DNA from: Apostichopus japonicus
Lineage: Eukaryota; Echinodermata; Holothuroidea; Aspidochirotida; Stichopodidae
DNA length: 64,000 nucleotides
NCBI RefSeq assembly: GCF_037975245.1
Contig: NC_092571.1
Span: forward strand, 27,542,564 to 27,606,563
Reading direction: 5' to 3'
Made by a program: the position numbers and the translations under genes. The first letter of the stretch is position 1. Each line of letters opens with the position of its first letter. Under the pieces are notes generated by a model that ran no database searches, was not told where the DNA came from, and was given only the letters and a program-made list of their open reading frames with translations. This document shows, one piece after another, positions 4,605 through 59,505 of this stretch.

Positions 4605-5845
4605 TCATTTAACAATATCATACTGTTCATATTCTTGTAAAGGTTCGCAGGGAGACAGATAACCACCACTGTCATAAGTAAATAAAGATGAATTGATGTT
4701 CGTATAGTTATCTGTGGGTAGATTTAATGCATTACTATTATCAATCTGAGATTCAATCGGTGGGACTATGTCATCATTCATGGATGTATTTCTATCATTA
4801 GCATTATTCGTACTAGGGTTCTCTCCGGCGGAAACATTTAAGCGATATTTACATACTATAATTACAATGAGACATATTAAACAGAAGCTGATGACCACGA
4901 CAACTAATAAAACAGCTATTACTCGACCTGGATTATTGGTTGCACTGATTTGGATCGTCGTTGTGATATTTCTATTTCTGTAGTTACCAACACATGGTAT
5001 ATTCACTGGGCAAACGTCCCTTCCGGTATCCGTAACATACAGTTGAATGTATGTATCGCCTTAACTAATATAATATTTCCAATGACTAGGGATGTTAGTC
5101 CAGGTTAGGTTAACTTCACTCACATTACTGGTACAAATAAAAATATGATTCTTCACATTACTGCAAATGATATCTGATGGAGCCACCGCAACAGAGAACA
5201 ATTGGAGAAGTAGTATAGGTCTTAAGGAGCATGATCCTTGATAACTTTGATTATAAGGAGCTGGTAATTGTTGAGAGACATTATTGTTAAATGATGAGTT
5301 GAAGTACGATGAGAATGATAGAGTCTTGGAGGAATGCGGGTGAGAGGATGTTGTCTTGGTTGAGATGCTAGTGACATCTGTGGTTTTAATTCCCTGTATG
5401 ATATGGTTTGACATAGTCACGTGTGGAATTCCTTCCTCTGAAGTACAGTTCATCTCGACAAGGTCAATCTGATCCTCGAAAGTATATGGGCCGATTTCAA
5501 TGGAAGATTTACAAATAGGTTTACTGCTTATTAATGTGTAGACATTGCTAATCACAGCATATTTCTCATTACCAACTTCACCACATCTATATGTTCCTTT
5601 ATATTCTTCAGTTGCATGTTTTAATGTCAGGTTGCCCGTAGTGAGACCAATCTTATGTTAAATGGATTGTTAGCACTCTGTTCACAAATAAATTCAACTG
5701 TTTCATTCTTCAGAACGTTGATAGGGTCAGGAATAGGAGCAAATTTTGTAGTCATACGCCGAGGAAAGGAAGGTTCCAAACATGTTGTTATAACCGCACA
5801 CGATAAAAGTGTCGATAAAATATTCTCAAGTCTCATTGAATCCAT
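4605..5845 (-). pseudogene. Ig-superfamily receptor pseudogene, copy A (C subtype)
   Basis: Colinear with intact gene C (33910-35238) from its start codon to the QYDIVK terminus, but broken. About 70 bases are missing in the first Ig domain near 5653. Fifteen bases are missing near 5282, which removes the SVFVC segment and thus the second cysteine of Ig domain 2. An indel and stop near 5050 separates domain 3 from the membrane helix. The 3' part still encodes an intact helix and a tail with YTNI, YDSG, YLSP and YDIV motifs (4605-5006), and its coding sequence is only lightly diverged from C. It cannot make the full receptor; a truncated product from an internal start is conceivable but unsupported. 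Confidence 0.85.
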
Positions 5846-5891
5846 ATTGGTCTTCAGCCGTGTGATGATACTTACAATTAAGGCTATGTAC

Positions 5892-7425
5892 CTAAAATAG
5901 AAAGGACAAAAATAATAAGAGCTTTTTAATGTCTCAAATTGAATAGATATCTTCAATGTATGTATGTATGTATGTATGTATGTATGTATGTATGTATGTA
6001 TGTATGTATGTATGTATGTATGTATGTATGTATGTATGTATGTATGTATGTATGTATGTATGTATGTATGTATGTATGTATGTATGTATGTATGTATGTA
6101 TGTATGTATGTATGTATGTATGTATGTATGTATGTATGTATGTATGTATGTATGTATGTATGTATGTATGTATGTATGTATGTATGTATGTATGTATGTA
6201 TGTATGTATGTATGTATGTATGTATGTATGTATGTATGTATGTATGTATGTATGTATGTATGTATGTATGTATGTATGTATGTATGTATGTATGTATGTG
6301 TGTATGTATGTATGTATGTGTGTATGTATGTGTGTTATGCATTATTCGCATATCGATGGAATTTAAATATGCAGGAGTAGGAGAAGCCGGTTGAAAGTTG
6401 TGTTAGGGGTGGGACAAAAGTCGATTTGAGTTGTAGAAGTTACCTTGGCACTATTTCAGTTTTGCACAAACTGCGATGACCTAGACGATAAATTGGGAAT
6501 TTCAACTTTTCCTATCCACATCTCGAATATACCTGTTCTTGGAATTAATTTATCTTGTCCTTTTTCCCTGAGTAACTGCCTCCTCTTGAAGTAGCAATTC
6601 TCCTACCAACAATTAGTATTATCTCAGACAAGATTAGAAGTATATCATCTCAAACTTCGATTGGCATTATTTTTTTGCATAAAATTTAATAATTTTTGTA
6701 AAAAGACGAAAGTTCTACGAACATTTAAAATTCTCGAATAATCGCCCCAAACTACTATTTGCTATTTCAGTTCCACTTTTTCTCAACTGATGATATTTTT
6801 TAACTCTAATTTTGGACATTTATCTCAATATTTCTACTACTTCGTTCGGAATTTCTATTTGTAGAAATTAAGGTATTTCATTCACAAACTGTCGACGTAT
6901 TACTCATATTTTACATTTTTTATTAAACATCCAACTTTCTTTAAAATGCTTCACTATTCAATGTAAAAACTGAGAATGTTTACTTCCTCAAAGTCTTGAA
7001 ATGTTTCTTATGATTACAATTGGATTATTGCAATTAGTTACTTGTTTTTGTATGCCGTAATTTCGACTGTTTAATTTTTCGATATTTTGAGCAAAAAAAT
7101 GGTGAATGATGCTATATGCTGATATTAGAATGCAATGTGCCTCTTGTTCTGTTCTTATAAAATTGGGAAGAATGGGAAATGTCGAGAAAGCAACTCCTGC
7201 CTTTACTCTGATCAGTGCTAGCTCCCCTGCACCTAGTCCCTAAGCCTATACTATGTGATGCTATACTATCTGATGTGGCGTAGCGCTACATTATTGCTTC
7301 AAAGTGAAGCTAGCTTATAAGGCTTTTACAAAATTTCAACGAATAACTGATGCCCGTAAAACTAGATTCCTTAATACTTTCCTCATAGCTTGTTTAACAG
7401 TTATAGTAACATTAAGTGGACTTAC
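5892..7425 (-). other. Putative 5' UTR intron of Ig copy A
   Basis: On the minus strand TTACGTCG is followed by GTAAGT at 7425, and a CTTTCTATTTTAG acceptor ends at 5892, 47 bases upstream of the start codon. Gene C has the same donor and acceptor at 36473 and 35285. The two introns align throughout, the main length difference being the (TGTA)n block. The intron is inferred from splice consensus and paralogue conservation; there is no transcript evidence. Confidence 0.55.
5957..6334. repeat. (TGTA)n microsatellite, about 94 units
   Basis: A nearly perfect tetranucleotide array with a few TGTG variants at the right end. The matching site in the gene C intron (about 35394-35407) has only about three units. 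Long open frames across it in all phases are artefacts of the 4-base period. Confidence 0.98.
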
Positions 7426-9500: not shown

Positions 9501-9502
9501 GT

Positions 9503-9711
9503 TCCTCTTTCTCTTCCCGAGGTCTTGGCTATCTTCTACTCCCTCCTTTTTTCCTTTTTCTCTCTTTTTTTCTTTTTCTTTTCCCTTCCTTCCTCTCCTC
9601 CTTTTCTTTTTTCCCCCTCCTTTTCCCTTTTTTCTTCTCTTTTTTTCTCTCCTATTTTCCTTACCCGGGGGGGGGGCGCGCCCCCAACGCCCCCCCCTGG
9701 ATACGCACCTG
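9503..9711. repeat. Polypyrimidine tract followed by G- and C-runs
   Basis: About 160 bases of the plus strand are almost only C and T, then a run of G and GCGCGCCCCC-type sequence ends at CTGGATACGCACCTG. The right end looks like a hAT-type terminus (CAGGTGCGTATCCAG on the minus strand) abutting relic G1. I could not find the opposite terminus. The lysine/arginine-rich minus frames here are composition artefacts. Confidence 0.7.
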
Positions 9712-10100
9712 ATAACAATTACAATGATAATGATAATCAACATCAAACATATTGCTGGACTGGTTGCAACGAAAGAATATGTGACTAACGTATTGTGCTG
9801 TTGTTAAGATGGCTATGTATCCATAGTAACCAACACATTGCATATAAACGTTGAATAGGCGGTATCCGTAATATTAAGTTTAATTTAGTTGTTGCGTGTG
9901 TTAATATCATATTTGTAGTAATTATTTATTTACTTCCATATCACTTTACTTCACTTAATACATTACTGCATCACTTCAGTATTTTATTCCTCACATTACT
10001 GAACTTGATTCTGGATGGAGTCAATGTAACAGAGAATAAAGGTAGAAGTATAATAGGCTTTCTTATATCAAATGATCTCGGAACAGACGGTGTGTCAGAG
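9712..10100 (-). pseudogene. Relic Ig receptor fragment G1 (membrane helix and Ig domain 3)
   Basis: No open frame remains, but the DNA aligns with gene B from its membrane-helix codons to the start of domain 3. Anchors are the CAATGATAATGATAATCA block with CATATTGCTGG (helix region), CCATAGTAACCAACACATTG (domain 3 QCVGYYG region), CGGTATCCGTAATATTAAG and TCACATTACTG. It is truncated on its 3' side by the GC-rich element ending at 9711. This is an old dead member of the array. Confidence 0.75.
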
Positions 10101-10365
10101 ACGAAGATAAAAAAGAATAAATAGGGTCTGCCATACAAATAAACCCTATCATGTGTGGCTTATAATAACAAATATTGTAAGTCTTTAGCTGTCATGACTA
10201 GATAAAGGTTATTTGATGCATTTCGTTTGAGTCCTCACGTACAGGAGCTGATTATATTAATTACATTGTTTATCACTTGTTATGTTTAGAAATGTTAGTT
10301 TCTTCTTAAGCGTCGGTTAAATTTCCAGGCTTTCCTGACATGTTAAAGGAAGATGAAAAATCGAA

Positions 10366-12785: not shown

Positions 12786-13379
12786 AGAGAATGAGATAGA
12801 CAATGCTGCATTGTCCTTGTTGGATGAAGGTACTATAAAGGAGCTCATACCAAAGATTGGCACCATGATGACAGTTTTGAAGGGTTGGTGACAGAAGGTA
12901 CTTTAAAGAAACTAAATGGGATATACATTTTCAAGTGTCTCAGGGTTGTAGATGGCAACATTAGGACTTCTTTCTTTCACTTGAAACATGCCCATGGCAT
13001 TAATGCTCAACATAGGTCAAATATTATTTGTAGTCAGGAAAACTGTAAATTAAAATTTGGAACATGCTGTGGTTACAAAAGGCATCTGCTCACAAAACAT
13101 AGTTTGCCATCTGAACTAACAGTAAATGAAAACAATGTTCAAAATGAACTTGAACAATTGGAAGAAACTGAGAGTGGTGATGATGCATATTCATGCGGTG
13201 ACATAGAAGATAGAGATCTTGAAATTGACCAAAGTAATGACCCTGCTGCAATTTTCATTGAGAGATTGAAAGCCTCAAATATACCATCATCACTTGTACA
13301 GACCATTATTTGTGACACAAAAGTATTGATAGGCAATTTTGTTGATGATGTGGAGAAACATATATCAGACATTTTATAG
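12786..13379 (+). pseudogene. CACTA-borne gene, 5' exons: SAM-like segment and C2H2-type finger
   Basis: After a TTATTTCAG acceptor, 12787-12880 encodes ENEIDNAALSLLDEGTIKEL and more, which resembles a SAM-like segment common in marine invertebrate transposon proteins. From 12885 a second frame runs 164 codons to a stop at 13379. It contains a C-x4-C...H-x4-H finger-like array (CSQENC, then RHLLTKH) followed by an acidic linker and a helical stretch ending VEKHISDIL. Animal EnSpm transposases commonly begin with such fingers. The two parts are in different frames, and a LINE has landed immediately downstream, so the gene is broken. Confidence 0.5.
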
Positions 13380-13401
13380 TGATGAATGTTCTTACCTAAA
13401 A

Positions 13402-14031
13402 ATGTTCTTACCTAAAAACTGCCCAAAGTACATATGCCGAATTTGTAATACCCAGGGTCATAGAGAAGCAAGTTGCCCTTCTGTGGTATGCTTTAACTGT
13501 CAGGGACTCGGGCATAAGAGCTTTAATTGTCCGGAAAGAACAGAAGTAGGCGACGAATACAATAGCGATGAGACCGATGAACAAGTCAATCCCAAGACAA
13601 CCGCAGACAGATCTGAGCACACAATAGAGCATGACCAGGCTAATACAGATCTTAACAGAATGGACCCGCCCCAAAACATCCAACAAAAGACATCCTCAAT
13701 GGAACACAGCCGAGCAAACACAGACAAACAACAGGAACCAAAGACTGGTAAGAAAACTTGGCAAAAGGAACAAAAGGCAGCCACACCGACACAAAGAATA
13801 CCAGGAAGCAGGCAAAATGCAGAGGTTTCAGTCACTAATCAAACCAACAAGACAACAGAAAATCCACAACCCCCAAAAAGGCAAATGTCATCATGTGATG
13901 CAGAGCAGTTCATGACGGTCAAATACAAGAAGAAAACGCTAATCCCAAACCTGAGTAGAGCGAGGAATTTCAAACCAGGTGAGACCAAGGTGACACCAAG
14001 GGCTAATCCAACTGGAACTTTGCAGAAATGA
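13402..14031 (+). CDS. LINE ORF1, zinc-knuckle nucleic-acid-binding protein
   Basis: A 209-residue frame starting at the ATG inside the second ATGTTCTTACC copy; an upstream in-frame ATG at 13339 belongs to flanking transposon sequence. Two CCHC zinc knuckles (C-x2-C-x4-H-x4-C) lie at roughly residues 12-25 and 31-44: CRICNTQGHREASC and CFNCQGLGHKSFNC. The remainder is polar, rich in Gln, Asn, Lys and Thr, and predicted disordered. LINE ORF1 proteins coat the element's RNA. Its stop overlaps the ORF2 start as ATGA, suggesting coupled re-initiation. The N-terminus is probably truncated relative to a full-length element. Confidence 0.75.
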   Translation: MFLPKNCPKYICRICNTQGHREASCPSVVCFNCQGLGHKSFNCPERTEVGDEYNSDETDEQVNPKTTADRSEHTIEHDQANTDLNRMDPPQNIQQKTSSMEHSRANTDKQQEPKTGKKTWQKEQKAATPTQRIPGSRQNAEVSVTNQTNKTTENPQPPKRQMSSCDAEQFMTVKYKKKTLIPNLSRARNFKPGETKVTPRANPTGTLQK

Positions 14032-17000
14032 ACCTCATAACAAATATATTCATTTTGATGGCGTTACCAGTTACTACTGCGAAAGCTGACCGGAGAAAAA
14101 GTACCCCGAACGAACCGGAACATACTGATAAATTCAATGCTGTTATTTTAATTGAGCACAATATCTCATGTATGCATTACGACATTACATCATTTAATAA
14201 TCTCCCTAGACATGATGATTTATCTATTTTTCATCACAATAGTCGTAGTTTGAATCAAAATTTTAATGATATTACAACTTTTCTCTCTCTACTCAGAGAT
14301 GATTTCTCAATTATCGGATTTTCTGAAACTTGGCTAAATGACAGTATCTCACCTCTGATAAGCATTAATAATTTCACGTTAATAGAACAACATCGCAGCG
14401 ACCGAAGAGGAGGCGGGGTATGTTTATTTGTTCATAATACCCTGAGTTTCAAACATAGACCGGACCTGTCGATATTCAATCCGACGATTGAATCTATATT
14501 TGTTGAGATAACAACACCTAGTAGTAAAGAGAAATGTATTATTGGCGTAATCTATAGACCACCAAGTGGTTCGATAGATGATTTTAATGTTCATTTACAA
14601 TGTATTCTTAACGTCATAACGAATACCAAATTTAAATCCTATATCATGGGAGACTATAATATCGATCTAACCAACAAACACATATCCGCTAGTTTCTTAA
14701 ACACTATTTACGCATATGGATTCACACCAACAATTAGCAAGCCCACCCGTATTAGTAGTACTTCGGCCACATTAATTGATAATATCATCACCAATGTTAC
14801 CTCTACCATTACATCAGGAATTCTGACTACTGATCTAAGTGATCATTTACCCATTTTTATCAAAGTTCCCGCAAGAAAATATATACCAAAGAGCCCTATT
14901 CACGCTAGAAATTGTAATACCAATAATATAAGACGATTTGTATCAAGCATCAAAGAAAACAATTGGGACGATGTCCTCGATAAACATGACGTCAATGTTG
15001 CTTATGATATATTTTACAATATTGTAGATTCAACTTATAATGATTGCTTTCCATACCGTAAAATAACTAAAAGAGGTAAAAAGAAACATCCTTGGATCAC
15101 AAAGGGTATACTAACCTCTATTCAAAGGAAAAATAAATTGTTCAAACGTTACATTAAGAATTCGACAGAAAGTTATAAGACTTCTTATAATACCTATCGT
15201 AATAAGCTTAATCATGTTATTAGATTCTCTAAGAGATTATATTTTAATAACAAGTTTTATGATGCTAGAAATAATTCGAAGAATACCTGGAATATCATTA
15301 ATGAAATTCTTCATAATGACCGCAAAAAATCAACATATCCTGCTTCTTTCAAAAATGGCGATCAAGAGATTACCAATGACATCGATATTGCAAACGACTT
15401 CAATAACTTCTTTATCAATCTTGGTCCTTCATTGGCAGACAAGATTACGAGCAAAGGGACGCATAACGAGTTTATGCATAAAACTAGTCACAACAATTCG
15501 ATTTTTACATTTCCTGTATGTGAGGAGGAACTCCTTAACGTTGCGACTGCTTGTCTAAAACCTAATAAAGCAGCAGGATATGATGATTTTAAGCCAGGTA
15601 TCATTAAACACATTATTCCTTTAATTACTAAGCCTTTGACTCATATTTGTAACTTATCTTTTAATACTGGAACATTTCCAGATTCGTTGAAAATTGCAAA
15701 GGTTATTCCGATTTTTAAAAAGGGCGAAGCAGATTTATACGAAAATTATAGACCCATTTCATTGCTTTCATGTTTCTCGAAAATCATTGAAAGACTTATG
15801 TTTAATCGAATTTTTAATTTTCTTAACAAATATGACATTCTATGCAACCAACAATATGGCTTTCGACCACATCATTCTACTGAACTTGCACTGGCAGATG
15901 CCGTTGACAAATTGTACAGCAGTCTTGATAATAATAGATCTTGCTTGGGTGTGTTCCTAGATCTTTCCAAAGCATTCGACACTATTGATCATACCATTCT
16001 ACTTAGTAAATTACAACATTATGGCATCAGAGGAACAACGCTGAACTGGATCGATAGTTATATATCTAATCGGTATCAATATATCTCTTACAAAAACACT
16101 CATTCTCATCTTGCAGAAATTCAATGTGGTGTTCCACAAGGCTCAATTCTAGGCCCTTTACTGTTTATTATATATGTCAATGACATCTGCCACGTATCAG
16201 AAATCGCAAACATTACGTTATTTGCCGACGACACAAATATTTTTTTCGAATCAAATGAAAATGAAAATTTATTTCATATTAAAGTGTCTTCTGAATTGAA
16301 TAAATTTAACGACTGGTTTGCCTCTAATAAGCTATCGCTTAACATTGGTAAAACGAATTATATCGTTTTTAATACATCCCGAAATTTTAGCTGGGATAAA
16401 GATATTTTTATGGGAGGTAAAATTCTCAAAGAGGTATTTTCTAATAAATTCTTAGGTGTACATATTGATCATAAACTTTCATGGGGTGATCATATTTCCA
16501 TAGTATGCAAGAAAGTTGCAAAGAATATAGGAATATTATCGAAATTGAAACACTACCTGCCACAACACATATTAAAGACACTTTATCAAACTTTAGTGGT
16601 CCCACATTTTTCTTATTGCTCGATAATTTGGTCTGGTACACGTGATACTAATCTTAAGCCACTTATTATATTACAAAAGAAAGCTGTCCGCCACATATCA
16701 CATGCTGCACCACGTGATCACACCAACCTTCTATTCAAGGATCTGAATGTATTGAAAATTAATGACATAATACGTGTAAATCTTGCCACCTTCACTTATA
16801 AGGCTTGGAATGGACTCCTACCTAATGCATTTCATAATTATTTAATCAGTAATTCGGATATACATCACCACAACACAAGACATGCAAATCATGCGCATTA
16901 TCACAACACGAATACCTCAACAGGAATGTTAAGCCTCAGAAATCGAGCAATAAAAACCTGGAATTCTATTACTGACATTATTAAAAATAAATTATCGTGT

Positions 17001-17048
17001 AGGACATTTAGAAAATGTTATATTAAAGAAATAATTGCATCATATTAA
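14028..17048 (+). CDS. LINE ORF2, endonuclease-reverse transcriptase
   Basis: An uninterrupted 1006-codon frame. The N-terminal apurinic-type endonuclease has HHNSRSL (about residue 70), SETWL (98), RRGGGV (125), GDYNIDL (207) and SDHLP (270), which carry the metal-binding and catalytic Asn, Glu, Asp and His. The central reverse transcriptase has VIPIFKKG, NYRPISLL, YGFRPHHST, FLDLSKAFD (642), GVPQGSILGPLLF and the active-site FADD (731). A C-terminal domain follows. The enzyme nicks target DNA and primes reverse transcription of the element RNA in the nucleus. All key residues are present, so it may be recently active. Length is normal for CR1/L2-type ORF2. Confidence 0.95.
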   Translation: MNLITNIFILMALPVTTAKADRRKSTPNEPEHTDKFNAVILIEHNISCMHYDITSFNNLPRHDDLSIFHHNSRSLNQNFNDITTFLSLLRDDFSIIGFSETWLNDSISPLISINNFTLIEQHRSDRRGGGVCLFVHNTLSFKHRPDLSIFNPTIESIFVEITTPSSKEKCIIGVIYRPPSGSIDDFNVHLQCILNVITNTKFKSYIMGDYNIDLTNKHISASFLNTIYAYGFTPTISKPTRISSTSATLIDNIITNVTSTITSGILTTDLSDHLPIFIKVPARKYIPKSPIHARNCNTNNIRRFVSSIKENNWDDVLDKHDVNVAYDIFYNIVDSTYNDCFPYRKITKRGKKKHPWITKGILTSIQRKNKLFKRYIKNSTESYKTSYNTYRNKLNHVIRFSKRLYFNNKFYDARNNSKNTWNIINEILHNDRKKSTYPASFKNGDQEITNDIDIANDFNNFFINLGPSLADKITSKGTHNEFMHKTSHNNSIFTFPVCEEELLNVATACLKPNKAAGYDDFKPGIIKHIIPLITKPLTHICNLSFNTGTFPDSLKIAKVIPIFKKGEADLYENYRPISLLSCFSKIIERLMFNRIFNFLNKYDILCNQQYGFRPHHSTELALADAVDKLYSSLDNNRSCLGVFLDLSKAFDTIDHTILLSKLQHYGIRGTTLNWIDSYISNRYQYISYKNTHSHLAEIQCGVPQGSILGPLLFIIYVNDICHVSEIANITLFADDTNIFFESNENENLFHIKVSSELNKFNDWFASNKLSLNIGKTNYIVFNTSRNFSWDKDIFMGGKILKEVFSNKFLGVHIDHKLSWGDHISIVCKKVAKNIGILSKLKHYLPQHILKTLYQTLVVPHFSYCSIIWSGTRDTNLKPLIILQKKAVRHISHAAPRDHTNLLFKDLNVLKINDIIRVNLATFTYKAWNGLLPNAFHNYLISNSDIHHHNTRHANHAHYHNTNTSTGMLSLRNRAIKTWNSITDIIKNKLSCRTFRKCYIKEIIASY

Positions 17049-22918: not shown

Positions 22919-24202
22919 TCATTTAACAATATCATACTGTTCATCGTCTTGTAAACGTTCACATGGAGAGAGATAACCACCACTGTCATATGTAAGTGAA
23001 GATGAATTTATGTTCACGTATTTCTCCGTGGGAAGAATCTTCGGTAAAACGTCTACGGAAGCATCATCCATTTGAGTTGTGTCCTTACTATGTTGAGAGT
23101 TTATCACAAAAATGCGACTGAGAAGAAACGCAACAGCAACACAAGCAACAACAATGATGATGATCACCAAGGTCAAATATATTGCTACATTGTTTACTAT
23201 GACACAATGTGGAAAATATAACACGTGTGCTGTTGATGCAATGACTCTATCTCCATAGTAACCAACGCATTGTATGTCAACTAAGTAGACGTCACTTCCG
23301 GTATCCGTTACATTTAGTTCAATGTATGTGTCGCCTTCCTTAATATCATATTTCCAGTGATTAGGGATGTTACTCCAGGTAAGGTTAACTTCACTCACAT
23401 TACTGGTGCAACGTAATATTGCATTTCTAATATCACTGAAGTCGATAGTTGATGGATTCGCTGTGACAGAAAACAAAGGGAGAAACAGAATAGGTCCGAA
23501 GGAGCAAGATCCTTGATAACTCTGATAAGGTGCTGGTAATTGTTGAGAGACATTGCAGACAAAGACACTATTGTTAAATGATGAGTTGAAGTACGATGAG
23601 AATGATAGAGTCTTAGAGTGGTGCAGGTAAGAGGATACTGTCCTAGTTGAGATGCTAGTAACGTCATTGATTTCATCTCCATCTCTGATGTAAATTGACA
23701 TCATCACTGGTGGGTCTCCTTCCTCTGAAGTACAATTCATCTCGATGTCACTTTGTACCGAATCCTCAAATATGAATCGAGATCCATATGATGATGAACA
23801 AAGAGGATTAACATCATTAATCGGATGAAAACCCACGATTGTAGCAGATAGTTCCTTTTGATTGCGACATCGAAACAATGTGCCGTTTATTTGACTTGTT
23901 AATTTATTTATTGTTAACAAAATAGTTGTTGAATTAATCATGTCCAATTGATAGGTGGTAGAAAATTCATCCAGCAGTTGCGAATTTATAGCTATATTAA
24001 AAATTTCCTTACTACTGCTTAAAGCCTGTACTTGTAAGATGTTTATCTCTTGTTCACAGTAAATTCCTACAGTACTTCCAAAAGGAAAGAACGCATTATA
24101 GTTTTCCGTCCTAAAGTTCGCATATTTAATCGTCTCTTCAGAAGCAAGAATAGTCAAGAAAGCAAAGATTGCTATCAATTTAAACGTCGCCTTTGTATTC
24201 AT
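22919..24202 (-). CDS. Ig-superfamily transmembrane receptor, copy B
   Basis: A 427-residue type I membrane protein encoded in one exon. Residues 1-20 form a signal peptide. Ig-like domain 1 has Cys49/Cys112, domain 2 Cys157/Cys216 and domain 3 Cys265/Cys312. Extra conserved Cys135 and Cys233 bracket domain 2. A membrane helix spans about 336-362. The tail carries YVNI (395), YDSG (405), YLSP (410) and YDIV (423). YxNx and YxxP fit known SH2-binding types, so signalling by tyrosine phosphorylation is likely. Many NxS/T sites suggest a glycosylated ectodomain. It starts at the only ATG giving a signal peptide; a TTTTTTTCCAG acceptor lies about 35 bases upstream. Ligand and named family are unknown. 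Confidence 0.9.
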   Translation of the reverse strand: MNTKATFKLIAIFAFLTILASEETIKYANFRTENYNAFFPFGSTVGIYCEQEINILQVQALSSSKEIFNIAINSQLLDEFSTTYQLDMINSTTILLTINKLTSQINGTLFRCRNQKELSATIVGFHPINDVNPLCSSSYGSRFIFEDSVQSDIEMNCTSEEGDPPVMMSIYIRDGDEINDVTSISTRTVSSYLHHSKTLSFSSYFNSSFNNSVFVCNVSQQLPAPYQSYQGSCSFGPILFLPLFSVTANPSTIDFSDIRNAILRCTSNVSEVNLTWSNIPNHWKYDIKEGDTYIELNVTDTGSDVYLVDIQCVGYYGDRVIASTAHVLYFPHCVIVNNVAIYLTLVIIIIVVACVAVAFLLSRIFVINSQHSKDTTQMDDASVDVLPKILPTEKYVNINSSSLTYDSGGYLSPCERLQDDEQYDIVK

Positions 24203-24237
24203 TTTAAAGCTGCGAGTTATAGAAACAATATTTGGCT

Positions 24238-31752: not shown

Positions 31753-31760
31753 GTGATCAG

Positions 31761-32394: not shown

Positions 32395-33909
<1,515 letters not shown>

Positions 33910-35238
33910 TCATTTAACAATATCATACTGTTCATATTCTTGTAAAGGTTCGCAGGGAGACAGATAACCACCACTGTCATAAGTAAATAAAGATGAATCG
34001 ATGTTCGTATAGTTATCTGTGGGTAGATTTAATGCATTACTATTATCAATCTGAGATTCAATCGGTGGGACTATGTCATCATTCATGGATGTATTTCTAT
34101 CATTGGCAATACTCGTACTAGAGTTCTCTCCGGCGGAAACAGTTAAGCGATATTTATATACTATAATTACAATGAGACATATTAAACAGAAGCAGATGAC
34201 CATGACAACAAATAAAACAGCTATTACTCGACCTGGGTTATTGGTTGCACTGATTTGGATCGTCGATGTGATATTTCTATTTCTGTAGTTACCAACACAT
34301 TGTATATTCACTGAGCAGACGTCACTTCCGGTATCCAATACAGTGAGTTCAGTGGATGCATCGCTTTTCTTAATATCATACTTCCAGTGAGTTGGAATCT
34401 TAGTCCAGGAAAGGCTAACTTCACTCACATTACTGGTACACTTAAGAATATGATTCTTCACTTTACTGCAAATTATTTCTGATGGAGTCACCGCAACAGA
34501 GAACAAATGGAGAAGAAGTATAGGTCCTAATGAGCAAGATCCTTGATAACTCTGATAATAAGGAGCTGGTAATTGTTGAGAGACATTGCAGACAAAGACA
34601 CTATTGTTAAATGATGAGTTGAAGTACGATGAGAATGATAGAGTCTTAGAAGGAAGCGGGTGAGAGGATGTTGTCTTGGTTGAGATGCTAGTGACATCTG
34701 TGGTTTCATTTCCCTGTATGATATGGTTTGACATAGTCACTTGTGGAATTCCGTCCTCTGAAGTACAGTTCATCTCGATGAGGTCAATCTGATCCTCGAA
34801 AATATATGGTCCGATATCAATGGAAGATTTACAAATAGGTTTACTGCTTATTAATGTGTAGACATCGCCAATCACAGCATATTTCTCATTACCAACTTCA
34901 CCACATCTATATGTTCCTTTATATTCTTCAGTTGCATGTTTTAATGTCAGGTTGCCCGTAGTGAGACCAAAAATTTGAAAATCGAATATATTTGAAAATT
35001 CCTCTACTACCTGCTTGTTTTGCACAAGTACAATGCCTTTAAATCTTATGTTAAATGGATTGTTGGCATTCTGTTCACAAATAAATTCAACTGTTTCATT
35101 CTTCAGAACGTTGATAGGGACAGCAATTACATCAAATATTGTAGTCATACGCCGAGGAGAGGAAGGTTCCAAACATGTTGTTATAACCGCACACAATAAA
35201 AGTGTCGATAAAATATTCTCAACTCTCATTGAATCCAT
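33910..35238 (-). CDS. Ig-superfamily transmembrane receptor, copy C (second subtype)
   Basis: A 442-residue single-exon frame. Signal peptide about 1-22. Ig-like domain 1 has Cys54/Cys112 with the classic EYKGTYRC strand-F motif, domain 2 Cys158/Cys217 and domain 3 Cys267/Cys314. Cys136 and Cys235 flank domain 2. An additional Cys257/Cys308 pair is specific to this copy among the intact ones. Membrane helix about 338-360. The tail has YTNI (410), YDSG (420), YLSP (425) and YEQYDIV (435, 438). Domain 1 is unlike that of B, E and F, whereas domain 2 and the tail are nearly the same. Likely a surface receptor with phosphotyrosine signalling; ligand unknown. It is the intact parent type of pseudogenes A and D. 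Confidence 0.92.
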   Translation of the reverse strand: MDSMRVENILSTLLLCAVITTCLEPSSPRRMTTIFDVIAVPINVLKNETVEFICEQNANNPFNIRFKGIVLVQNKQVVEEFSNIFDFQIFGLTTGNLTLKHATEEYKGTYRCGEVGNEKYAVIGDVYTLISSKPICKSSIDIGPYIFEDQIDLIEMNCTSEDGIPQVTMSNHIIQGNETTDVTSISTKTTSSHPLPSKTLSFSSYFNSSFNNSVFVCNVSQQLPAPYYQSYQGSCSLGPILLLHLFSVAVTPSEIICSKVKNHILKCTSNVSEVSLSWTKIPTHWKYDIKKSDASTELTVLDTGSDVCSVNIQCVGNYRNRNITSTIQISATNNPGRVIAVLFVVMVICFCLICLIVIIVYKYRLTVSAGENSSTSIANDRNTSMNDDIVPPIESQIDNSNALNLPTDNYTNIDSSLFTYDSGGYLSPCEPLQEYEQYDIVK

Positions 35239-37820: not shown

Positions 37821-37839
37821 CAGCAATCATATAATCAAT

Positions 37840-38535
37840 CGATCGATCCATCGATCGATCCATAGATCCATCGATTCATCGACCCATCCATCCAACGATT
37901 CATCGACCCATCCATCCAACGATTCATCGAACCATCCATCGATCAGTTCATCGATCGATCGATCGATCGATCGATCGATCGATCGATCGATCCATCCATC
38001 CATCCATCCATCCATCCATCCATCCATCCATCCATCCATCCATCCATCCATCCATCCATCCATCCATCCATCCATCCATCCATCCATCCATCCATCCATC
38101 CATCCATCCATCCATCCATCCATCCATCCATCCATCCATCCATCCATCCATCCATCCATCCATCCATCCATCCATCCATCCATCCATCCATCCATCCATC
38201 CATCCATCCATCCATCCATCCATCCATCCATCCATCCATCCATCCATCCATCCATCCATCCATCCATCCATCCATCCATCCATCCATCCATCCATCCATC
38301 CATCCATCCATCCATCCATCCATCCATCCATCCATCCATCCATCCATCCATCCATCCATCCATCCATCCATCCATCCATCCATCCATCCATCCATCCATC
38401 CATCCATCCATCCATCCATCCATCCATCCATCCATCCATCCATCCATCCTTCCATCCATCCATCCATCCATCCATCCATCCTTCCATCCATCCATCCATC
38501 CATCCATCCATCCATTCATGCATCCATCCATCCTA
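37840..38535. repeat. Compound (GATC)n / (CCAT)n microsatellite
   Basis: Begins with imperfect CGATCCATCGA repeats, passes through about nine perfect GATC units (37953-37990), then about 136 CCAT units with rare CCTT variants at the right end. Frames reading MDGW repeats on the minus strand are artefacts of the repeat. Confidence 0.98.
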
Positions 38536-44697: not shown

Positions 44698-45137
44698 TTA
44701 ATTAACAATATCATATTGTTCATCTTCTTGTAAAGGTTCGCAGGGAGACAGATAACCACCACTGTCATAAGTAAATAAAGATGAATTGATGTTCGTATAG
44801 TTATCTGTGGGTAGATTTAATGCATTACTATTATCAATCTGAGATTCAATCGGTGGGACTATGTCATCATTCATGGATGTATTTCTATCATTGGCATTAC
44901 TCGTACTAGAGTTCTCTCCGGCGGAAACAGTTAAGCGATATTTATATACTATAATTACAATGAGACATATTAAACAGAAGCAGATGACCATGACAACTAA
45001 TAATACAGCTATTACTCAACCTGGGTTATTGGTTGCACTGATTTGGATCGTCGATGTGATATTTCTATTTCTGTAGTTACCAACACATTGTATATTCACT
45101 GAGCAGACGTCACTTTCGGTATCCAATACAGTGAGTT
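44698..45137 (-). pseudogene. Ig receptor 3' fragment D (C subtype)
   Basis: Retains the last part of Ig domain 3, the membrane helix and the full tyrosine tail ending EQYDIVN, nearly identical to C. A C-to-T change creates TGA at 45016-45018 in place of the Arg codon before the helix. The gene is cut at 45137, where sequence switches to the spacer block beginning TTCAGTAGGAGG; gene C also has TTCAGT at this point, so the junction may have used that microhomology. It cannot encode a receptor. Confidence 0.9.
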
Positions 45138-45139
45138 GG

Positions 45140-46819
45140 TTCAGTAGGAGGATTTTTTATTTGGACCACTACTACGGCTGTAGGCTACCCGCCCCACCCC
45201 TCTCGTTTTCTACTATATACCTAAGTATTTATTACCAAAACCTTGCGTTTAGTGCTACATCAATAGACCTAACTGATGGCCTAAATATACACAACAGAAT
45301 GCATCATTTGACATCTAAATTATTTCGGTGATATCCCACAACTCGAGAAACACACGAGATTACCGCAGGACAATGCTCCATTCATTATAAAATCATTCCT
45401 TCGTCTCTAGCCCTCCCATTATCAGGTTTAGGCTTATACCTTAATCAGTCGATGGCACATCTGGCCCTGCCAAGGCTGCCATAAAGGTTCATGTAACTAT
45501 CTAAACCATACAGGGAATTTAAGTGAGTCATTTATTAGCACAAGCTTGCATTTAGAGCAAATGTAAGGCATGTTACAAGATCATGATTACTAAATCAAAA
45601 TCGCCACCCAACTGTTTTGGCTAAAAATATAAATGACCGGGTCATTTTGTAGATGATCTGATAGTACAAACATGGTAGTTATTTGATCTTGTTTTGTTCA
45701 TTGGAAAGCAGAATGATACATAATTTAAACTACATGGACTTAAAGAGAATAAGTAAAGGTATTCCAAATTATCCTTAATATGTGAAACAGCCTTACTATG
45801 CATCATACATTCAAGTTGTCAAGTTGATAGAAAATGTCACTTGAAAATGTAATATTAATGGCTGTAATGTTATTATATGATGTCCAACTAAACTACTTTT
45901 TTAGCTCTTGAATACCATATTACTGTACCACATAACATATGTATACAGCATGTTAGGCCTACATGCAAACTCCTGCCTCTTGCAACCATGCCTTCCGCGC
46001 GGTAACTTCAAATACATTTCTGTAAGACTATATAAGTGTCTTGTCTTTATTTGAACAATTCCGATCCTCATACTTCGTCAGTAACATAACAATGCCCAAT
46101 GTCTTCAGTATTATATGTACAGTATGTTGTTTGTTTAAGCCTCAATTTGGTTGCAGTCGTCTCGTCAGTAGATGAAAATAAAATGTCCATTTAAACTGCT
46201 GATTTAACAGTATGGCCTATTCGTTTTAGTTTAACGAAAAATAACAGCGAACACAGTCCACTAACTGATTAACAGTGTAACATATGTCTATATTTTGTTT
46301 TACTATTGTGGCTTAAGCAAGGGGTGGAAGATAGGGAGGGTGAGGCACTGTCTTACAGAGAGAGCATTCATATAAGATACAACAGTGTGTTGTATTAATA
46401 ATGACTTATGTTGTGTAGGTTCTAGCAAATCACATCTGACGGGAATCACGAGATCTTCAAATTCGTATGCGGTCGTTATATACGTCAGGTTCAGAGTTAC
46501 GTGCATCAAGTAATATGGGCAGCATATAGACATATCGTAAGAGTGCTAGCTTACATGCTAAATTTCATGCAATAAAGGTAGTAATGGTTCAACATAAGGA
46601 GCCACTGTTGATGCAATATAGGCGTGTTAATTAAATGTCTTTTAATACCCTGGGGCAATTTATAATATTGACGTTGTTTTGTTATCTTGTGGCATGAGGA
46701 TTATAGTACAGCAGTAGCTCTAACGCTTGTCGCAGGTATTTAATAGAAGACGGCACTGATAACAGAGGACCTATTTTAGATTGGCGAAACAAATCAGTGC
46801 ACAAATTTCACGATTGACA
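45140..46819. repeat. Spacer block, first copy of E/F duplication
   Basis: Matches 53254-55172 at about 90% or better, with indels. Shared landmarks include CCAAAACCTTGCGTTTAGTG, TTTGATCTTGTTTTGTTCA and CTCTTGCAACCATG. It has no coding capacity and no clear terminal repeats. Confidence 0.9.
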
Positions 46820-46870
46820 ATAATTATATTTTATTATTGTGCAAAAGACATTGTGCTGCACCCCAACCAC

Positions 46871-47125
46871 TATGTATGACTATATATCCATAGTTCCCAA
46901 CACATTACATATACATTAAATAGGCGTTATCCGTAATATTAAGTTCAATTGATTTATTGTCTGTGTTAATATCTTATTTATAATAATTAGCCTTATTTTT
47001 CTTCCACATAACTTCATTTCACTTAGTACATTACTACAACACCTTATTTCTGACGTCACTGAACTTGATTATGGATGGAGTCAATGTGAAAAAGAATAAA
47101 GGGCGAAGTATAATAGGCTAACTTA
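46871..47125 (-). pseudogene. Relic Ig receptor fragment G2 (Ig domain 3)
   Basis: No open frame, but CCATAGTTCCCAACACATTAC, GTTATCCGTAATATTAAG, ACTGAACTTGATTATGGATG and AGTATAATAGGC align with relic G1 (9818-10060) and with domain 3 of gene B. It is absent from the corresponding place in the F unit (about 55420-55750). Confidence 0.7.
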
Positions 47126-49553: not shown

Positions 49554-50831
49554 TCATTTGACAATATCATACTGTTCATCGTCTTGTAAAGGTTCGCAGG
49601 GAGAGAGATAACCACCACTGTCATATGTAAATGAAGATGAATTGATGTTCACATAGTTCTCTGTGGGAAGAATTCCCGGTAAAACATCTACGGAAGCATC
49701 ATCCATTTGAATTAAGTCCTTGTTTTTTCGAATATTTGTCACATAAACGCGACTGAGAAGAAACACAACAACAACACAAACAACAACAATGGTGATGATC
49801 ACCAAGGTCAAATATATTGCTAGATTGGTTACTAGGACAGACAGTGGTGAATATGATAAATGTGCTGTTGTTGTGATGACTCTATCTCCATAGTAACCAA
49901 CACATTGTATGTCAACTGAGTAGACGCCACTTCCGGTATCAAATACATTGAGTTCAATGGATGCATCGCTTTCCTTAATATCATATTTCCAATGAGTTGG
50001 GATTTTAGTCCAGGATAGTTTAACTTCACTCACATTACTGCTACAACTAAATACTGCATTTCTAATATCACTTAAGTCGATAGATGGAGGTGTCGCTGTG
50101 ACAGAGAACAAAGGGAGAAACAGAATAGGTCCGAAGGAGCAAGATCCTTGGTAACTCTGATAAGGTGCTGGTAATTGTTGAGAGACATTGCAGACAAATA
50201 CACTATTGTTAAATGATGAGTTGAAGTACGATGAGAATGATAGAGTCTTAAAGGGGTGCGGGTGAGAGGATGCTGTCCTGGTTGAGATGTTAGTGACAAA
50301 TTCATCTCCATATCTGATGTAAGTTGACATCATCACTGGTGGGTCTCCTTCCTCTGAAGTACAATTCATCTCGATGTCACTCTGTACCGAATCCTCAAAT
50401 ATAAATGGAGATCCATATGACGATGAACACACAGGCTTACCATCATCAATCGGATTAAAACCCACGATCTTGGCACTTAGCTGCTTTGGGTTCAGACATA
50501 TGAAGGTCCTGCCATTTATTTCAGTCGTAAAATTCTTGATCTTAAACAAAGTAGTCGTTTCATTAATCACTTGAAACTGATACGTGTTTGAGAATTCCTG
50601 TTGTAATGTTGAATTTTTCACTATTTTATTAGCAGTGTTATCAGTGCTAAAGACTTCAATCCCTTTGTTTGTTCCCTGTACACAGTACAAGCCTACAATA
50701 CTTCCAAAAGGGAAGCCGATAGCAGCATTTCCCGTTTCAAATGTTTTAAACTCTCCATATTTGATCTCCTCTTGAGATGAATTAATGACAAATAAAGCAA
50801 TGATGACACTAAGTTTGAAAGCTACATTCAT
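49554..50831 (-). CDS. Ig-superfamily transmembrane receptor, copy E
   Basis: A 425-residue single-exon protein if started at the ATG that aligns with gene B (MNVAFKLS); the frame is open upstream to an ATG at 50888 but that adds a non-signal-like leader. Signal peptide 1-19. Ig-like domains with Cys50/Cys112, Cys156/Cys214 and Cys263/Cys310; flanking Cys135 and Cys231. Helix about 334-360. Tail motifs YVNI (393), YDSG (403), YLSP (408) and YDIV (421). Domain 3 shares the KIPTHWKYDIK and SDAS stretches with gene C but its end with B and F, a mosaic pattern. Likely a cell-surface signalling receptor; ligand unknown. Confidence 0.9.
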   Translation of the reverse strand: MNVAFKLSVIIALFVINSSQEEIKYGEFKTFETGNAAIGFPFGSIVGLYCVQGTNKGIEVFSTDNTANKIVKNSTLQQEFSNTYQFQVINETTTLFKIKNFTTEINGRTFICLNPKQLSAKIVGFNPIDDGKPVCSSSYGSPFIFEDSVQSDIEMNCTSEEGDPPVMMSTYIRYGDEFVTNISTRTASSHPHPFKTLSFSSYFNSSFNNSVFVCNVSQQLPAPYQSYQGSCSFGPILFLPLFSVTATPPSIDLSDIRNAVFSCSSNVSEVKLSWTKIPTHWKYDIKESDASIELNVFDTGSGVYSVDIQCVGYYGDRVITTTAHLSYSPLSVLVTNLAIYLTLVIITIVVVCVVVVFLLSRVYVTNIRKNKDLIQMDDASVDVLPGILPTENYVNINSSSFTYDSGGYLSPCEPLQDDEQYDIVK

Positions 50832-50888
50832 TTCCATTTCTTTTACAAGGTAAATGGAAGATCGGCAAGCAAAGGAAACAATAGTCAC

Positions 50889-52037: not shown

Positions 52038-52043
52038 CTTAGA

Positions 52044-55172: not shown

Positions 55173-55388
55173 TGTCAGCTGATATATTGATTTCGCTAAG
55201 CAGGACCTATTAAATTTGGCATGAATAATATTTTCCAAGCAAAGAAAACGCATGTCGAAATAACCGAGACTTTGTCTGTCTTGTTCTCTATAGTTCCCCC
55301 TTCTCAATGACATATCACTTGCAATGTGTATTACGTGATTTCCCATCACGAATGCCACCGTGCATGCAAACTGTGATGTAATGATCAA

Positions 55389-58203
55389 TAATTATATTTT
55401 ATTATTGTGCAAAAGCCACTGTGCAGCACCCCCAACCAAATATTTTTATGACAATTCGGTCAATATGCACCAGGCTACTGAAAGAAAAATAAATTGCAAT
55501 GTGTCTTTTAATGGCTAATCTTATATCATTATTTTCATGATTATTGTAACGACTTGCCCAAAAATGATAACCAATATGGAAGGGTAATAACACGGCAAAT
55601 GATTGTATGTAATTGGCATGCGATGTAATAACCGATGCATGTCTACATGATATTCACATTAACACGTTGTACGCGCGCCGAGCGTATTTCAATATGGTAA
55701 TATTTTTGGGTTAAGTCGTTACAGCCCCCAAATCAAATTGGGCTCCTATATGTGGCGACCGTGCGGAATTATGGAACTATTAAACTGGTGATGTTAAATC
55801 GACTGACGGAATCATGATACCACATGCAACATTTTCATTTCGAGTTAACCCACGTTATTCTATTGGCTGAGGTGTTTACGTATCGTTTCATACTCTAGCA
55901 AAAGACGATTTAGTCTTGTCAAATATGTTAAAACGAAGAGAACAAAAACAAAGCTAAGTGCAAATATGTATTATTGAATGCAATATAAACTTTAGTAGCG
56001 TTTGATCTCAAAAGTTTTCGACTCCAGTCTTGGCCTCGCTCTAAATGCAGAGTTGACAATAATATTCATTATTGACTTGACATGACATTTCTTTCAGTTC
56101 AAACTTCCTGCTCAAAATGTCAGTCTTTCAGTTTTAATGTTTATTTTACAATTTTTCACGACCCAAGCAAACACTACAAATAATGGTCTGAGCAAGAGTT
56201 GTACTATAGAGAGCAAATAGAAAGCTTGATTACAGTGAATCTTTCTCCATAGTTTAGTTTTGTCTAATTCAATGCATCATACACTTATTGCGAATATGAA
56301 TTATCGAACGCATTAAGTTTAGTAGCGTTTGATCTCAAAAATTTTCAACTTCAATCTTAGCCTCGCTCTAAATGCAGAGTTGACAATAATGTACATTATT
56401 GACTTGACATGACATTTCTTTCAGTTCAAACTTCCTGCTCAAAATGTCAGTCTTTCAGTTTTAATGTTTATTTTACAATTTAGTGCAAATAGAAAGCTTG
56501 ATTACAGTGAATCTGTCTCCATAGTTTAGATTTGTCTAAATCAATGCATCATACACTTAGTGCAAACATGAATTATAGAACGCATTATATATTTTAGTAG
56601 CGTTTGATCTCAAAACGTTTTCAACTACAATCTTAGCTTCGCTCTAAAATGCAGAGTTGACAATAATGAAGACATTTTTTACTTATATATGACATGACAG
56701 GGACTTATACATGACATGACATTTCTTTTAGTTCAAACTTCCTGATCAAAATGTGTTTCAGTTTTAATGTTTATTTTACTGTTAATTTGTCACGAATCAA
56801 GCAAACGCTTCAAGAAATGGTCTGGGCAAGAGTTGTACCTGCATTGCTCAATTAGTTCAGGAAATGCTTTTCACGATAAAATAATCGAAACTGAAAATTT
56901 ACATACTTTAAGCGCGTTCTGTATCCTCATAAAGCCTACGTGTAATGAGAACATATGTTGCTCTATGATTTACTTTCCATTAAAAGATGACTACAGACAG
57001 ACTACATGACATGTCATAGTTCATGGAATAACTATTTCTGTGTTGAGGACTTGAGAGTATTCATCATCCAGGGACAATCTCAACAACAAATTTCGTTATT
57101 AGCATATTAATCAGAAAAGGGAGAAGTTGAACAAAGAAGATATTAATGATCACCTTACTTTATACAGTGGATATACTTATTTTTTATCATCAACGTAAAT
57201 TAATATCATGCATACATGCAAAAAACGACGCAGTGTTCATCTATATTGCAACACATGTACCACGTCATATCAGTGTAAAGTATATTACATGATTTCCCTT
57301 CACGTACTGTGTAACAAAGTCAGTACGTTAACATATAATATAGATAATACTTTATTTGTGTGTAGTAGCCAAGTCATATATTGCAATTCATTACTATATA
57401 ATATATACTATGTATCATTCAGTATGACAGTCGGCCGTGCAAGGTAGTTCGCATTTGCTTAGTCCCAACAAATGCGACCAAGGGGAGATTAATTCGTTGT
57501 CGTCATGTGCGTCAATCAGTCATTCTGTGTGTGGAGGTCAGTTGTGAGACTATGGGGTCTTACAATAGGTCACTTAAAATGGAGGGAAAACGTCATGTAG
57601 TAGAATTATGCCACACAGGCTCTCCTCACCGAGCATGGTGGCGCTAACAAACGGACTAATGACCAGAGTTAATCACAGCATTGGTCACTCCCTGCAGTAG
57701 AAATTGCAGATGTGTTATATGTTACCTTCAGGACAACTCGTCCACATATTAGAATTTAAGTATAGAAATGCAACTGATTCCATTCCAATTTTATGCCTCG
57801 ATTACAGTTTTCACTTTTTCTGTGTATAATAGGTGACATGAATTTCTTTAAAGTATGCACCAATGCTTTGTTAAACACATGTTACCTTAGTTTAAGTGCG
57901 CTCGAATCGTTTGCTGTATTTATACATATTATACTATTGTAAAACGCCCGTTTAGCTTCCTAACACAAATATCGCGTTGAAGGAACGGATGTATTCTGAC
58001 TTATACCACCAAAGTGGAATGTATTTTGAGTTGATGATAAATGATACAAACGTACACCTTCAGCAATTGACTTCTGGGTTAACGATAACTTGACAAATAG
58101 TACTATGAGTACAGTATTCCTAATAATTACACACAGACAAAATATGTAACGAATCAAATACAAACATTAAAGATGAAGAATTGTTTTTGAGAGTAAATAA
58201 TAC
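55389..58203. repeat. Spacer and 3' flank of gene F
   Basis: About 55757-55900 matches 47399-47540. About 55960-56860 holds roughly three units of the 330-bp repeat, each with TTTGATCTCAAAA and AGAGTTGACAATAAT. From about 56990 it follows the common 3' flank. The CACTA target site is again uninterrupted (ACATGACATGTCATAG near 57005). No gene. Confidence 0.8.
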
Positions 58204-59505
58204 TCATTTAATAACATCATAATACTGTTCATCGTCTTGTAAAGGTTCACAGGGAGAGAGATAACCACCACTGTCATATGTAACTGAAGATGAATTTAAG
58301 TTCACATATTTCTCTGTGGAAAGAATTCCCGGTAAAACGGAAGCATCATCCATTTGAATTGTATCCTTGTTTTTTCGAATTTTTATCACATAAACGCGAC
58401 TGAGAAGAAACACAACAGCAACACAAGTAACAACAATGATGATGATGATCACCAAGGTCAAATATATTGCTAGATTGTTTACTTGGAAAGACAGTGGTGA
58501 ATATGATATATGTGCTGTTGATGCGATGACTCTATCTCCATAGTAACCAACACATTGTATGTCAACTGAGTAGACGTCACTTCCAGTATCCGTTACATTA
58601 AGTTCAATATATGTATTGCCTTCATTTATATCATATATCCAGTGACTAGGGATGTTAGTCCAGGTCAGGTTAACTTCACTCACATTACTGGTACACATAA
58701 TAATATGTTTCTTCACCTTACGGAAAATGGTTTCTGATGGAGTCACCGCAACAGAGAACAAAGGCAGAAACAGAATAGGTCCGAAGAAGCACGATCTTTG
58801 ATAACTCTGATAAGGTGCTGGTAATTGTTGAGAGACATTGCAGACAAAGACACTATTGTTAAATGATGAGTTGAAGTACGATGAGAATGATAGAGTCTTA
58901 AAGGGGTGTGGGTAGGAGGATACTGTCCTGGTTGAGATGCTAGTGACGTCATTGATTTCATCTCCATCTCTGATGTAAGTTGACATCATCAGTGGTGGGT
59001 CTCCTTCCTCTGAAGTACAATTCATCTCGATGTTACTTTGTACCGAATCCTCAAATATGAATCGAGATGGATATGATGACGTACACATAGGATTAGCATT
59101 ATCATTTAGCCTATGAAAGCCCAAGATAGTGGCAAATAATTGTAGGTCGCTTTGTAGGTCGCTCAGACATGCAAAAACTGTGTCATTTAACTGACGGGTT
59201 AGGTTATTTATTGTAAACAGAGAAGTCGTTGAATTAATCACTTCAAACTGATAAGTGTCTGAGAACCTATTCAGTAAAACCGAATTTTCAACTATGTTGA
59301 TAGTACCTTTATCGTAGATTTTGATGTCTGTCCAGTTGCTTGTCTTCTGCACACAGTAAATCTCTATCTTACTACCGAAAGGGAATTGTTGTACGGGATC
59401 ATCTATTATCTTTCGAAATTGTGCATATTTTATCTCCGCTTGAGAAGAATAAGCAATCAAGAAAACAAAGATCAGCAAAATGTCAAAAATAACCTTTATT
59501 GCCAT
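58204..59505 (-). CDS. Ig-superfamily transmembrane receptor, copy F
   Basis: A 433-residue single-exon protein from the ATG aligned with gene B (MAIKVIFD); an in-frame ATG nine codons upstream (59532) is less consistent with a signal peptide. Signal peptide 1-21. Ig-like domains with Cys51/Cys113, Cys163/Cys222 and Cys271/Cys318; flanking Cys141 and Cys239. Helix about 344-368. Tail motifs YVNL (400), YDSG (410) and YLSP (415), and a changed end EQYYDVIK with an extra Tyr in place of EQYDIVK. The start of domain 3 (AVTPSE...LTWTNIPSHW) resembles A and C, the rest resembles B. Likely a signalling surface receptor; ligand unknown. Confidence 0.9.
   Translation of the reverse strand: MAIKVIFDILLIFVFLIAYSSQAEIKYAQFRKIIDDPVQQFPFGSKIEIYCVQKTSNWTDIKIYDKGTINIVENSVLLNRFSDTYQFEVINSTTSLFTINNLTRQLNDTVFACLSDLQSDLQLFATILGFHRLNDNANPMCTSSYPSRFIFEDSVQSNIEMNCTSEEGDPPLMMSTYIRDGDEINDVTSISTRTVSSYPHPFKTLSFSSYFNSSFNNSVFVCNVSQQLPAPYQSYQRSCFFGPILFLPLFSVAVTPSETIFRKVKKHIIMCTSNVSEVNLTWTNIPSHWIYDINEGNTYIELNVTDTGSDVYSVDIQCVGYYGDRVIASTAHISYSPLSFQVNNLAIYLTLVIIIIIVVTCVAVVFLLSRVYVIKIRKNKDTIQMDDASVLPGILSTEKYVNLNSSSVTYDSGGYLSPCEPLQDDEQYYDVIK

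Follow-up and report, generated by a model that had tools for sequence, protein, structure and literature searches.

The window analysed here, 64,000 nucleotides of the sea cucumber Apostichopus japonicus (assembly GCF_037975245.1, contig NC_092571.1, positions 27,542,564 to 27,606,563 of the forward strand), contains a tandem array of single-exon immunoglobulin (Ig) receptor genes. Based on open reading frames (ORFs) and tblastn, the array consists of four intact genes (G2, G3, G5 and G6), two broken genes (G1 and G4) and two relics, all in the same orientation on the minus strand (Table 1). An initial annotation, made from the nucleotide sequence, had described this set of copies and placed it in an invertebrate deuterostome; both statements are confirmed, the host being an echinoderm. 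We give close to an even chance to the view that the array belongs to a family of A. japonicus type I membrane receptors whose genes are clustered and recombine, each receptor having a variable, V-like domain 1 (D1) at the membrane-distal end. With much the same confidence, just short of even, we read the products as recombining recognition receptors, probably signalling via adaptors to actin and perhaps serving phagocytosis. We infer an immune role for the receptor family. Clustered Ig receptors are a kind already known; what is new here is the variable top with an exchanged bottom, the several tail classes and the YLxP wiring. Echinoderms adjoin chordates, and how microbes or self are recognised there without antibodies is an open question. 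The cluster offers a concrete, testable recognition candidate in an aquaculture species that suffers from Vibrio disease.

Receptor architecture and mosaic genes

Each intact gene encodes in a single reading frame a signal peptide, three Ig domains (D1 to D3), one membrane helix and a short tyrosine tail. Signal peptide and helix were called from hydropathy. All four proteins have a hydrophobic N-terminus, one strongly hydrophobic helix and eight ectodomain cysteines at corresponding positions, with 9-11 possible N-glycosylation sites per protein. The tail is 66 residues long in G2, G5 and G6 and 83 residues long in G3. In the AlphaFold models of G2 and G3, with mean predicted local distance difference test (pLDDT) scores of 67 and 68, respectively, and most of G3 D1 at 83-92, three Ig-like domains are followed by a membrane helix and a disordered tail. 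The succession of parts given in the initial annotation is borne out by hydropathy and by these two models; of the checks that it had called for, structure prediction gives the three Ig-like domains, and the hidden Markov model search with Pfam detects the Ig domains only weakly. With a signal peptide, an Ig-fold ectodomain and one membrane helix, the window proteins are predicted to be type I receptors of the immunoglobulin superfamily, and their ectodomain has the V-C-C arrangement of nectins and nectin-like proteins. Neither a kinase domain nor a NACHT domain was found in the Pfam scan of the window proteins. A kinase receptor or an Ig-NACHT receptor with that part overlooked was rejected on this ground, the tails of 66-83 residues being too short. 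Receptor tyrosine kinases are reported to be expanded in the A. japonicus genome (PMC5638244). The window proteins differ from them in the absence of a cytoplasmic kinase domain.

The genes with a type-A D1 are unequally diverged along their length. Protein identity, given as G2-G5/G2-G6/G5-G6, is 48/48/43% in D1, 87/89/86% in D2, 73/75/63% in D3; for the membrane part and tail together it is 76/74/83%. The corresponding values of synonymous divergence (dS) are 0.97/1.34/1.06 for D1, 0.14/0.10/0.16 for D2, an intermediate 0.27/0.47/0.37 for D3 and, again with membrane part and tail taken together, 0.18/0.13/0.09. Synonymous sites are not expected to be so unequal between neighbouring domains of a gene unless its parts are of different ages. 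Where D1 gives way to D2, near nt 400, DNA identity steps up in all three comparisons from 53-71% to 89-95%. The 5' flank stays at the background level of 34-49%, and the 3' flank is mostly 70-99% identical over about 0.9-1.2 kb, in G2/G5 up to the end of the examined stretch. When type A is compared with type B, a single 100-nt bin in D2 reaches 96-98%, against 64-79% in the bins on either side. As far as these alignments go, the identity step would be explained most simply if the lower half had been copied between genes by ectopic conversion or swapped by unequal exchange.

The wider family shows the same separability of parts. Protein searches, which detect only relatives with exact words in common, returned 18 family ids (P0001-P0018), namely 15 named A. 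japonicus, two of the window's own (P0002 and P0013, identical to G5 and G3, respectively) and P0014, which is from a 21-kb ENA contig. Among the named relatives, P0001 and P0010 lie on a 971-kb contig of another A. japonicus assembly and the remaining 13 on a contig of 28,441,223 bases; neither G2 nor G6 was returned. The analysed set comprised 20 distinct proteins, the four window genes and 16 others, and trees by domain were built for 15 of them, with the five distant ones (P0014-P0018) omitted. In the D1 and D2 trees, type B (G3, P0006, P0007, P0010, P0011 and P0012) forms a clade with 100/100 support, and in the tail tree the T1 tails (G2, G5, G6, P0001, P0006 and P0007) form a clade, also with 100/100. 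In approximately unbiased (AU) tests, D1 rejects T1 (p-AU 0.00086) and T2 (p-AU 2e-92), D2 likewise rejects T1 (p-AU 1e-9) and T2 (p-AU 7e-6), D3 rejects type B (p-AU 1.5e-8), and the tail rejects type B (p-AU 5e-5) and not T2 (0.22). P0006 and P0007 have a B-type D1-D2 on tail T1; in P0005 an A-type D1-D2 is combined with tail T2. The conflicting trees show, at the level of sequence comparison, that across the wider family the types of D1/D2 and the types of tail have entered into new combinations.

Outside the window, P0003 (isoform X1) and P0009 (isoform X2) have identical last 152 residues and different ectodomains, D1 included. They may possibly represent one gene with alternative whole-ectodomain exons on one tail, or a recent conversion, and the isoform names do not decide between the two. 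An alternative splice donor at the junction of D3 and the membrane part of the T2 genes was considered and set aside. By eye its sequence is a poor donor, and splicing is therefore not claimed for the window genes.

Tail motifs and a proposed route to actin

The window tails carry YVNI, YTNI or YVNL, then YDSGGYLSP and, in three of the four, YDIV near the C-terminus, which reads YDIVK in G2, G3 and G5 and YDVIK in G6. A block matching the tail end of G2 (Table 1) also terminates the other three intact genes, with YVNL and YYDVIK in the G6 version. YxN is a Grb2-type site, and YDIV resembles an Nck-type site. YLSP occurs once in each of the four tails and provides, at the motif level, the YxxP of Crk-SH2-binding receptors. 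The longer pattern YDxxxYLxP is found in 14/20 family proteins, all four window genes among them, and persists in the distant paralogues P0016 (YDKEDYLVP), P0017 (YDKDDYLDP) and P0018.

P0018, an A. japonicus protein encoded outside the window, has a tail of about 356 residues with ten YLxP at about 30 residues per unit; nine units end in YLVP and one in YLAP, and six hold the full YDxxxYLxP. It would appear to be an Ig receptor with a Cas-like YLxP array, resembling the Crk-binding region of p130Cas. YxxP is the consensus of the Crk SH2 domain; p130Cas has 15 such motifs, and three or more in large intracellular proteins are described as rare (PMC2689226). Membrane proteins with repeated YxxP are known from before the metazoans, and two phosphopeptides of one of them bound a choanoflagellate Crk SH2 domain (PMC5043372). 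The ten YLxP of P0018 are comparable to the tandem Crk-SH2 sites of the p130Cas/BCAR1 substrate domain and of the choanoflagellate proteins (PMC2689226, PMC5043372). Unlike p130Cas, P0018 is an Ig receptor, the window tails hold a single YLSP, and Crk binding is here predicted from the motif. The weight given to YLSP comes from its conservation in the family and from the P0018 array, because alone in a short tail it is weak evidence.

The patterns of the immunoreceptor tyrosine-based inhibitory, switch and activation motifs (ITIM, ITSM and ITAM) were absent from all four window tails, and signalling of the ITIM/ITAM kind by these tails was rejected. Among the 20 family tails there was no ITAM or ITSM, and an ITIM-like pattern occurred in 3/20. 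No charged residue was seen by eye in the membrane helix of G2, G3, G5 or G6. The vertebrate KIR, LILR and NITR families are tandem clusters of Ig receptor genes in which the outer domain varies, some copies are broken, others are mosaic, and the tails are of several types; the window cluster resembles them in each of these respects. It differs in having neither ITIM nor ITAM, no charged membrane residue, an uninterrupted coding sequence and no sequence relationship that we found. The comparison with KIR-, FcR- and NITR-type clusters made in the initial annotation accordingly holds for clustering and turnover and fails for the signalling parts.

The following route may be proposed. D1 would contact a ligand, presented by the stalk; clustering would lead kinases of the Src-family type to phosphorylate the tail tyrosines; YLSP would then recruit Crk, and YVNI/YTNI would recruit Grb2; and the two adaptors together would act on Rac and actin remodelling, for example in uptake by coelomocytes. 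Phagocytosis is favoured among the possible outputs because Crk-DOCK180-Rac functions in it (PMC2689226) and because two other Ig-domain receptors of A. japonicus, AjNLRC4 and AjNLR-new, mediate phagocytosis of Vibrio via actin (PMC8699970, PMC13133943). In particular, AjNLRC4 exposes an Ig ectodomain at the surface membrane of coelomocytes; the receptor binds Vibrio and brings about its phagocytosis through actin (PMC8699970). Those two proteins carry a NACHT domain, where the window proteins carry a tail of 66-83 residues (PMC8699970, PMC13133943).

A more elaborate model, which we regard as rather unlikely in its entirety, is a germline recognition system of three exchangeable parts: a variable D1 that brings its 5' flank along, a stalk that varies less, and a tail drawn from several kinds that dock adaptors. 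Conversion would shuffle these parts, perhaps aided by splicing that attaches alternative whole-ectodomain exons to one tail (P0003/P0009), and YLxP would couple the system to Crk-DOCK-Rac, with P0018 as the extreme. If true, such a three-part YLxP system would be a path other than ITAM/ITIM from an animal immune Ig-receptor cluster to engulfment. The presence in the tail of a Crk-type motif, and not of ITAM/ITIM, suggests in any case a different means of linking an Ig receptor with the cytoskeleton.

Contrary observations and alternative explanations

The contrary observations gathered in this section weigh against recombining recognition receptors, and some of them speak for other explanations. 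Among the type-A genes, the pairwise ratio of non-synonymous to synonymous divergence (dN/dS) in D1 is 0.32-0.42, with dS near saturation (comparisons with G3 are saturated), and shows no positive selection on D1. With no non-synonymous excess, the diversity of D1 is taken to be old and not demonstrably selected. Variation in D1 is not higher in loops than in strands (p 0.41), and loop hypervariability was not found. Overall, constraint is weak in the membrane part plus tail (dN/dS 0.62-1.14, six pairs), and in the membrane helix alone G2 and G5 differ by seven non-synonymous and no synonymous changes. The lower half is uneven, the nt 700 bin dropping to 66-67% in both G6 comparisons, and the D3 trees reject neither T1 (p 0.45) nor T2 (p 0.24). 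The weak constraint on the membrane part and tail would suit a tandem duplication that is young, unstable and of little function, and in which the likeness of the lower halves reflects recent copying only; so would the two broken copies and two relics out of eight loci. The 3' non-coding flank is alike too, and recent copying alone therefore accounts for much of the lower-half likeness. We nevertheless consider such a duplication improbable. The frames are intact, dS in D1 reaches 1.3 at the dN/dS of 0.32-0.42, the tail end is better conserved (of six pairs, five have dN/dS of 0.11-0.66 and one has 1.01), and the core tail motif is retained in the distant paralogues P0016-P0018.

The fold of the ectodomain bears on a second explanation. 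The top matches over all three domains include nectin-like 4, nectin-1, IgLON and SIRP-gamma, with RAGE in addition for G3, and are mostly adhesion ectodomains, SYG-2 included. Many antibody chains match over two domains nearly equally well, and the first two domains of G3 match butyrophilin and PD-L1. The three-domain root-mean-square deviation (rmsd) is large, 10-14 Å against nectin-like 4, and identity in the structural alignments is 9-19%. A match to chain P22 of 8h2i (E 1e-4; 2e-8 with a profile) was made up of many 1-3-bit stretches in a repetitive protein and was dismissed, and CD4 matches (E 0.3 or weaker) were not significant. The preponderance of adhesion ectodomains suggests a strong rival, a family for cell-cell adhesion or self-recognition, in which D1 would bind the D1 of another copy or allele and mediate aggregation of tissue or coelomocytes rather than contact with microbes, on the working principle of nectins, Dpr/DIP or Hydractinia Alr. 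The front sheet is the usual homophilic face of Ig domains, and D1 variation in type A is indeed higher there (p 0.003; 0.024 using G3 strands), in a test chosen after the data had been seen. The excess is absent from type B (p 0.44) and from four outgroup proteins (0.85), and with A and B combined p is 0.13; front-sheet hypervariability as a general property of D1 was rejected, being confined to type A. The fold itself recurs in many V-C-C and V-C proteins, among them proteins of immunity (butyrophilin, PD-L1, SIRP-gamma and antibody chains). Nectins, nectin-like proteins, SIRP, RAGE and butyrophilins share this ectodomain with the window proteins at the low identities given above and have other tail motifs. 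Nectins have a C-terminal afadin-binding end, whereas the window tails end in DIVK or DVIK. Copy loss and several tail types are also less usual among adhesion molecules. An adhesion or self-recognition family is, in our estimate, unlikely, and it is the most serious competitor of recognition receptors.

The tails give rise to a third explanation. YDxxxYLxP is missing from 6/20 family proteins (P0003, P0004, P0008, P0009, P0014 and P0015), the tail sequence of which is different, and NPxY is present in 3/20, all three among these six. When the G5 tail was shuffled, at least one YxxP arose in roughly 27% of cases and at least one YxN in roughly 35%, and single sites of either kind prove little because shuffles produce them so often. 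YDxxxYLxP appeared in 1 in 5000 shuffles, a pattern picked after the sequences had been seen. That closely similar ectodomains carry two broad tail classes (P0003, P0004, P0008 and P0009 against the window type), with YDxxxYLxP in 14/20 and NPxY in 3/20, and that P0003 and P0009 combine an identical 152-residue tail with different D1, would fit a paired-receptor system. Common ectodomains with alternative tails (YLxP against the NPxY/YESY class) would then have opposite or different outputs. KIR, LILR and SIRP are known systems of this kind. With ITAM/ITSM in 0/20 and ITIM-like patterns in 3/20, and with no charged membrane residue for adaptor pairing visible in the window genes, paired receptors seem to us a good deal less probable than recognition receptors coupled to adaptors.

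The parallel with the Ig-NACHT proteins is also limited. The Ig domain of AjNLR-new is reported to be intracellular (PMC13133943), and AjNLRC4-type proteins were not among the relatives listed in the third protein search, which covered proteins of about 473-1505 residues and scored the best 7991 candidates by common words. Given the NACHT domain, the one intracellular Ig domain and the failure to recover them as relatives, the parallel is one of analogy and not homology. That failure is a weak negative, because only those candidates, within a limited length range, were scored.

Range of the family, gene coordinates and surroundings

The initial annotation had supposed a lineage-specific, undescribed family. 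Lineage specificity is consistent with 15 of the 18 ids being named A. japonicus, in searches limited to relatives with exact words in common and not aimed at the genome of any other echinoderm. In the literature no description of the receptor family was found among the matches listed, with subscription papers mostly outside the scope, which is compatible with an undescribed family. In term searches, the accessible main text of the A. japonicus genome paper (PMC5638244) yielded neither 'immunoglobulin' nor 'Ig domain', and the accessible text of the H. glaberrima genome preprint (PMC13228809) neither 'immunoglobulin' nor 'Ig-like'. The window genes bear comparison with Sp185/333 of the sea urchin, the proteins of which are not Ig receptors. 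Sp185/333, likewise clustered and unstable, is an echinoderm immune family (PMC5103432).

The coordinates of the receptor copies are collected in Table 1. In the ORF list, G5 and G6 begin upstream of the positions given there, with GTG at 50888 and 59532, respectively.

Table 1. Receptor genes, broken copies and relics in the window
Feature	Description	Position	Strand	Evidence
G1	Broken copy, nearest G3 (85-86%, two frames)	4605..5845	-	tblastn
Relic	Domain 3, spread over several frames	9793..10060	-	tblastn
G2	Intact 427-aa receptor, domain-1 type A, tail T1	22919..24202	-	ORF, tblastn, AlphaFold model
G2 tail end	Last 38 codons and stop: YVNI, YDSGGYLSP, YDIV	22919..23035	-	
G3	Intact 442-aa receptor, domain-1 type B, tail T2	33910..35238	-	ORF, tblastn, AlphaFold model
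G4	Broken copy, 3' part only: domain 3 end, membrane helix and tail T2; 94.5% to G3	44698..45138	-	
Relic	Domain 3 and beginning of membrane part	46809..47117	-	tblastn
G5	Intact 427-aa receptor, domain-1 type A, tail T1	49554..50837	-	ORF, tblastn
G6	Intact 433-aa receptor, domain-1 type A, tail T1	58204..59505	-	ORF, tblastn

Long simple repeats lie between the receptor copies, at 5956-6335 (ATGT x95), 32790-33254 (AT x234) and 37834-38533 (ATCC x175), the first of them directly upstream of the broken copy G1. A LINE-type retrotransposon at 12885-17048 on the plus strand has two open frames, first a zinc-knuckle ORF (13339-14031) and then one of 1006 aa, in which Pfam recognises a reverse transcriptase domain (E 5e-36). 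At the left edge of the window, two tRNA genes on the minus strand (71-140 and 1611-1680), 1540 bases apart and with an equal Rfam score of 48 bits, suggest a tandem tRNA repeat. At the other end, a satellite of 164-bp units (16.4 copies, 97% match) occupies 61293-64000, reaching the window end, with a GC content above that of the rest; by eye, its unit holds a stretch resembling a tRNA B-box (GGTTCGAACCCC).

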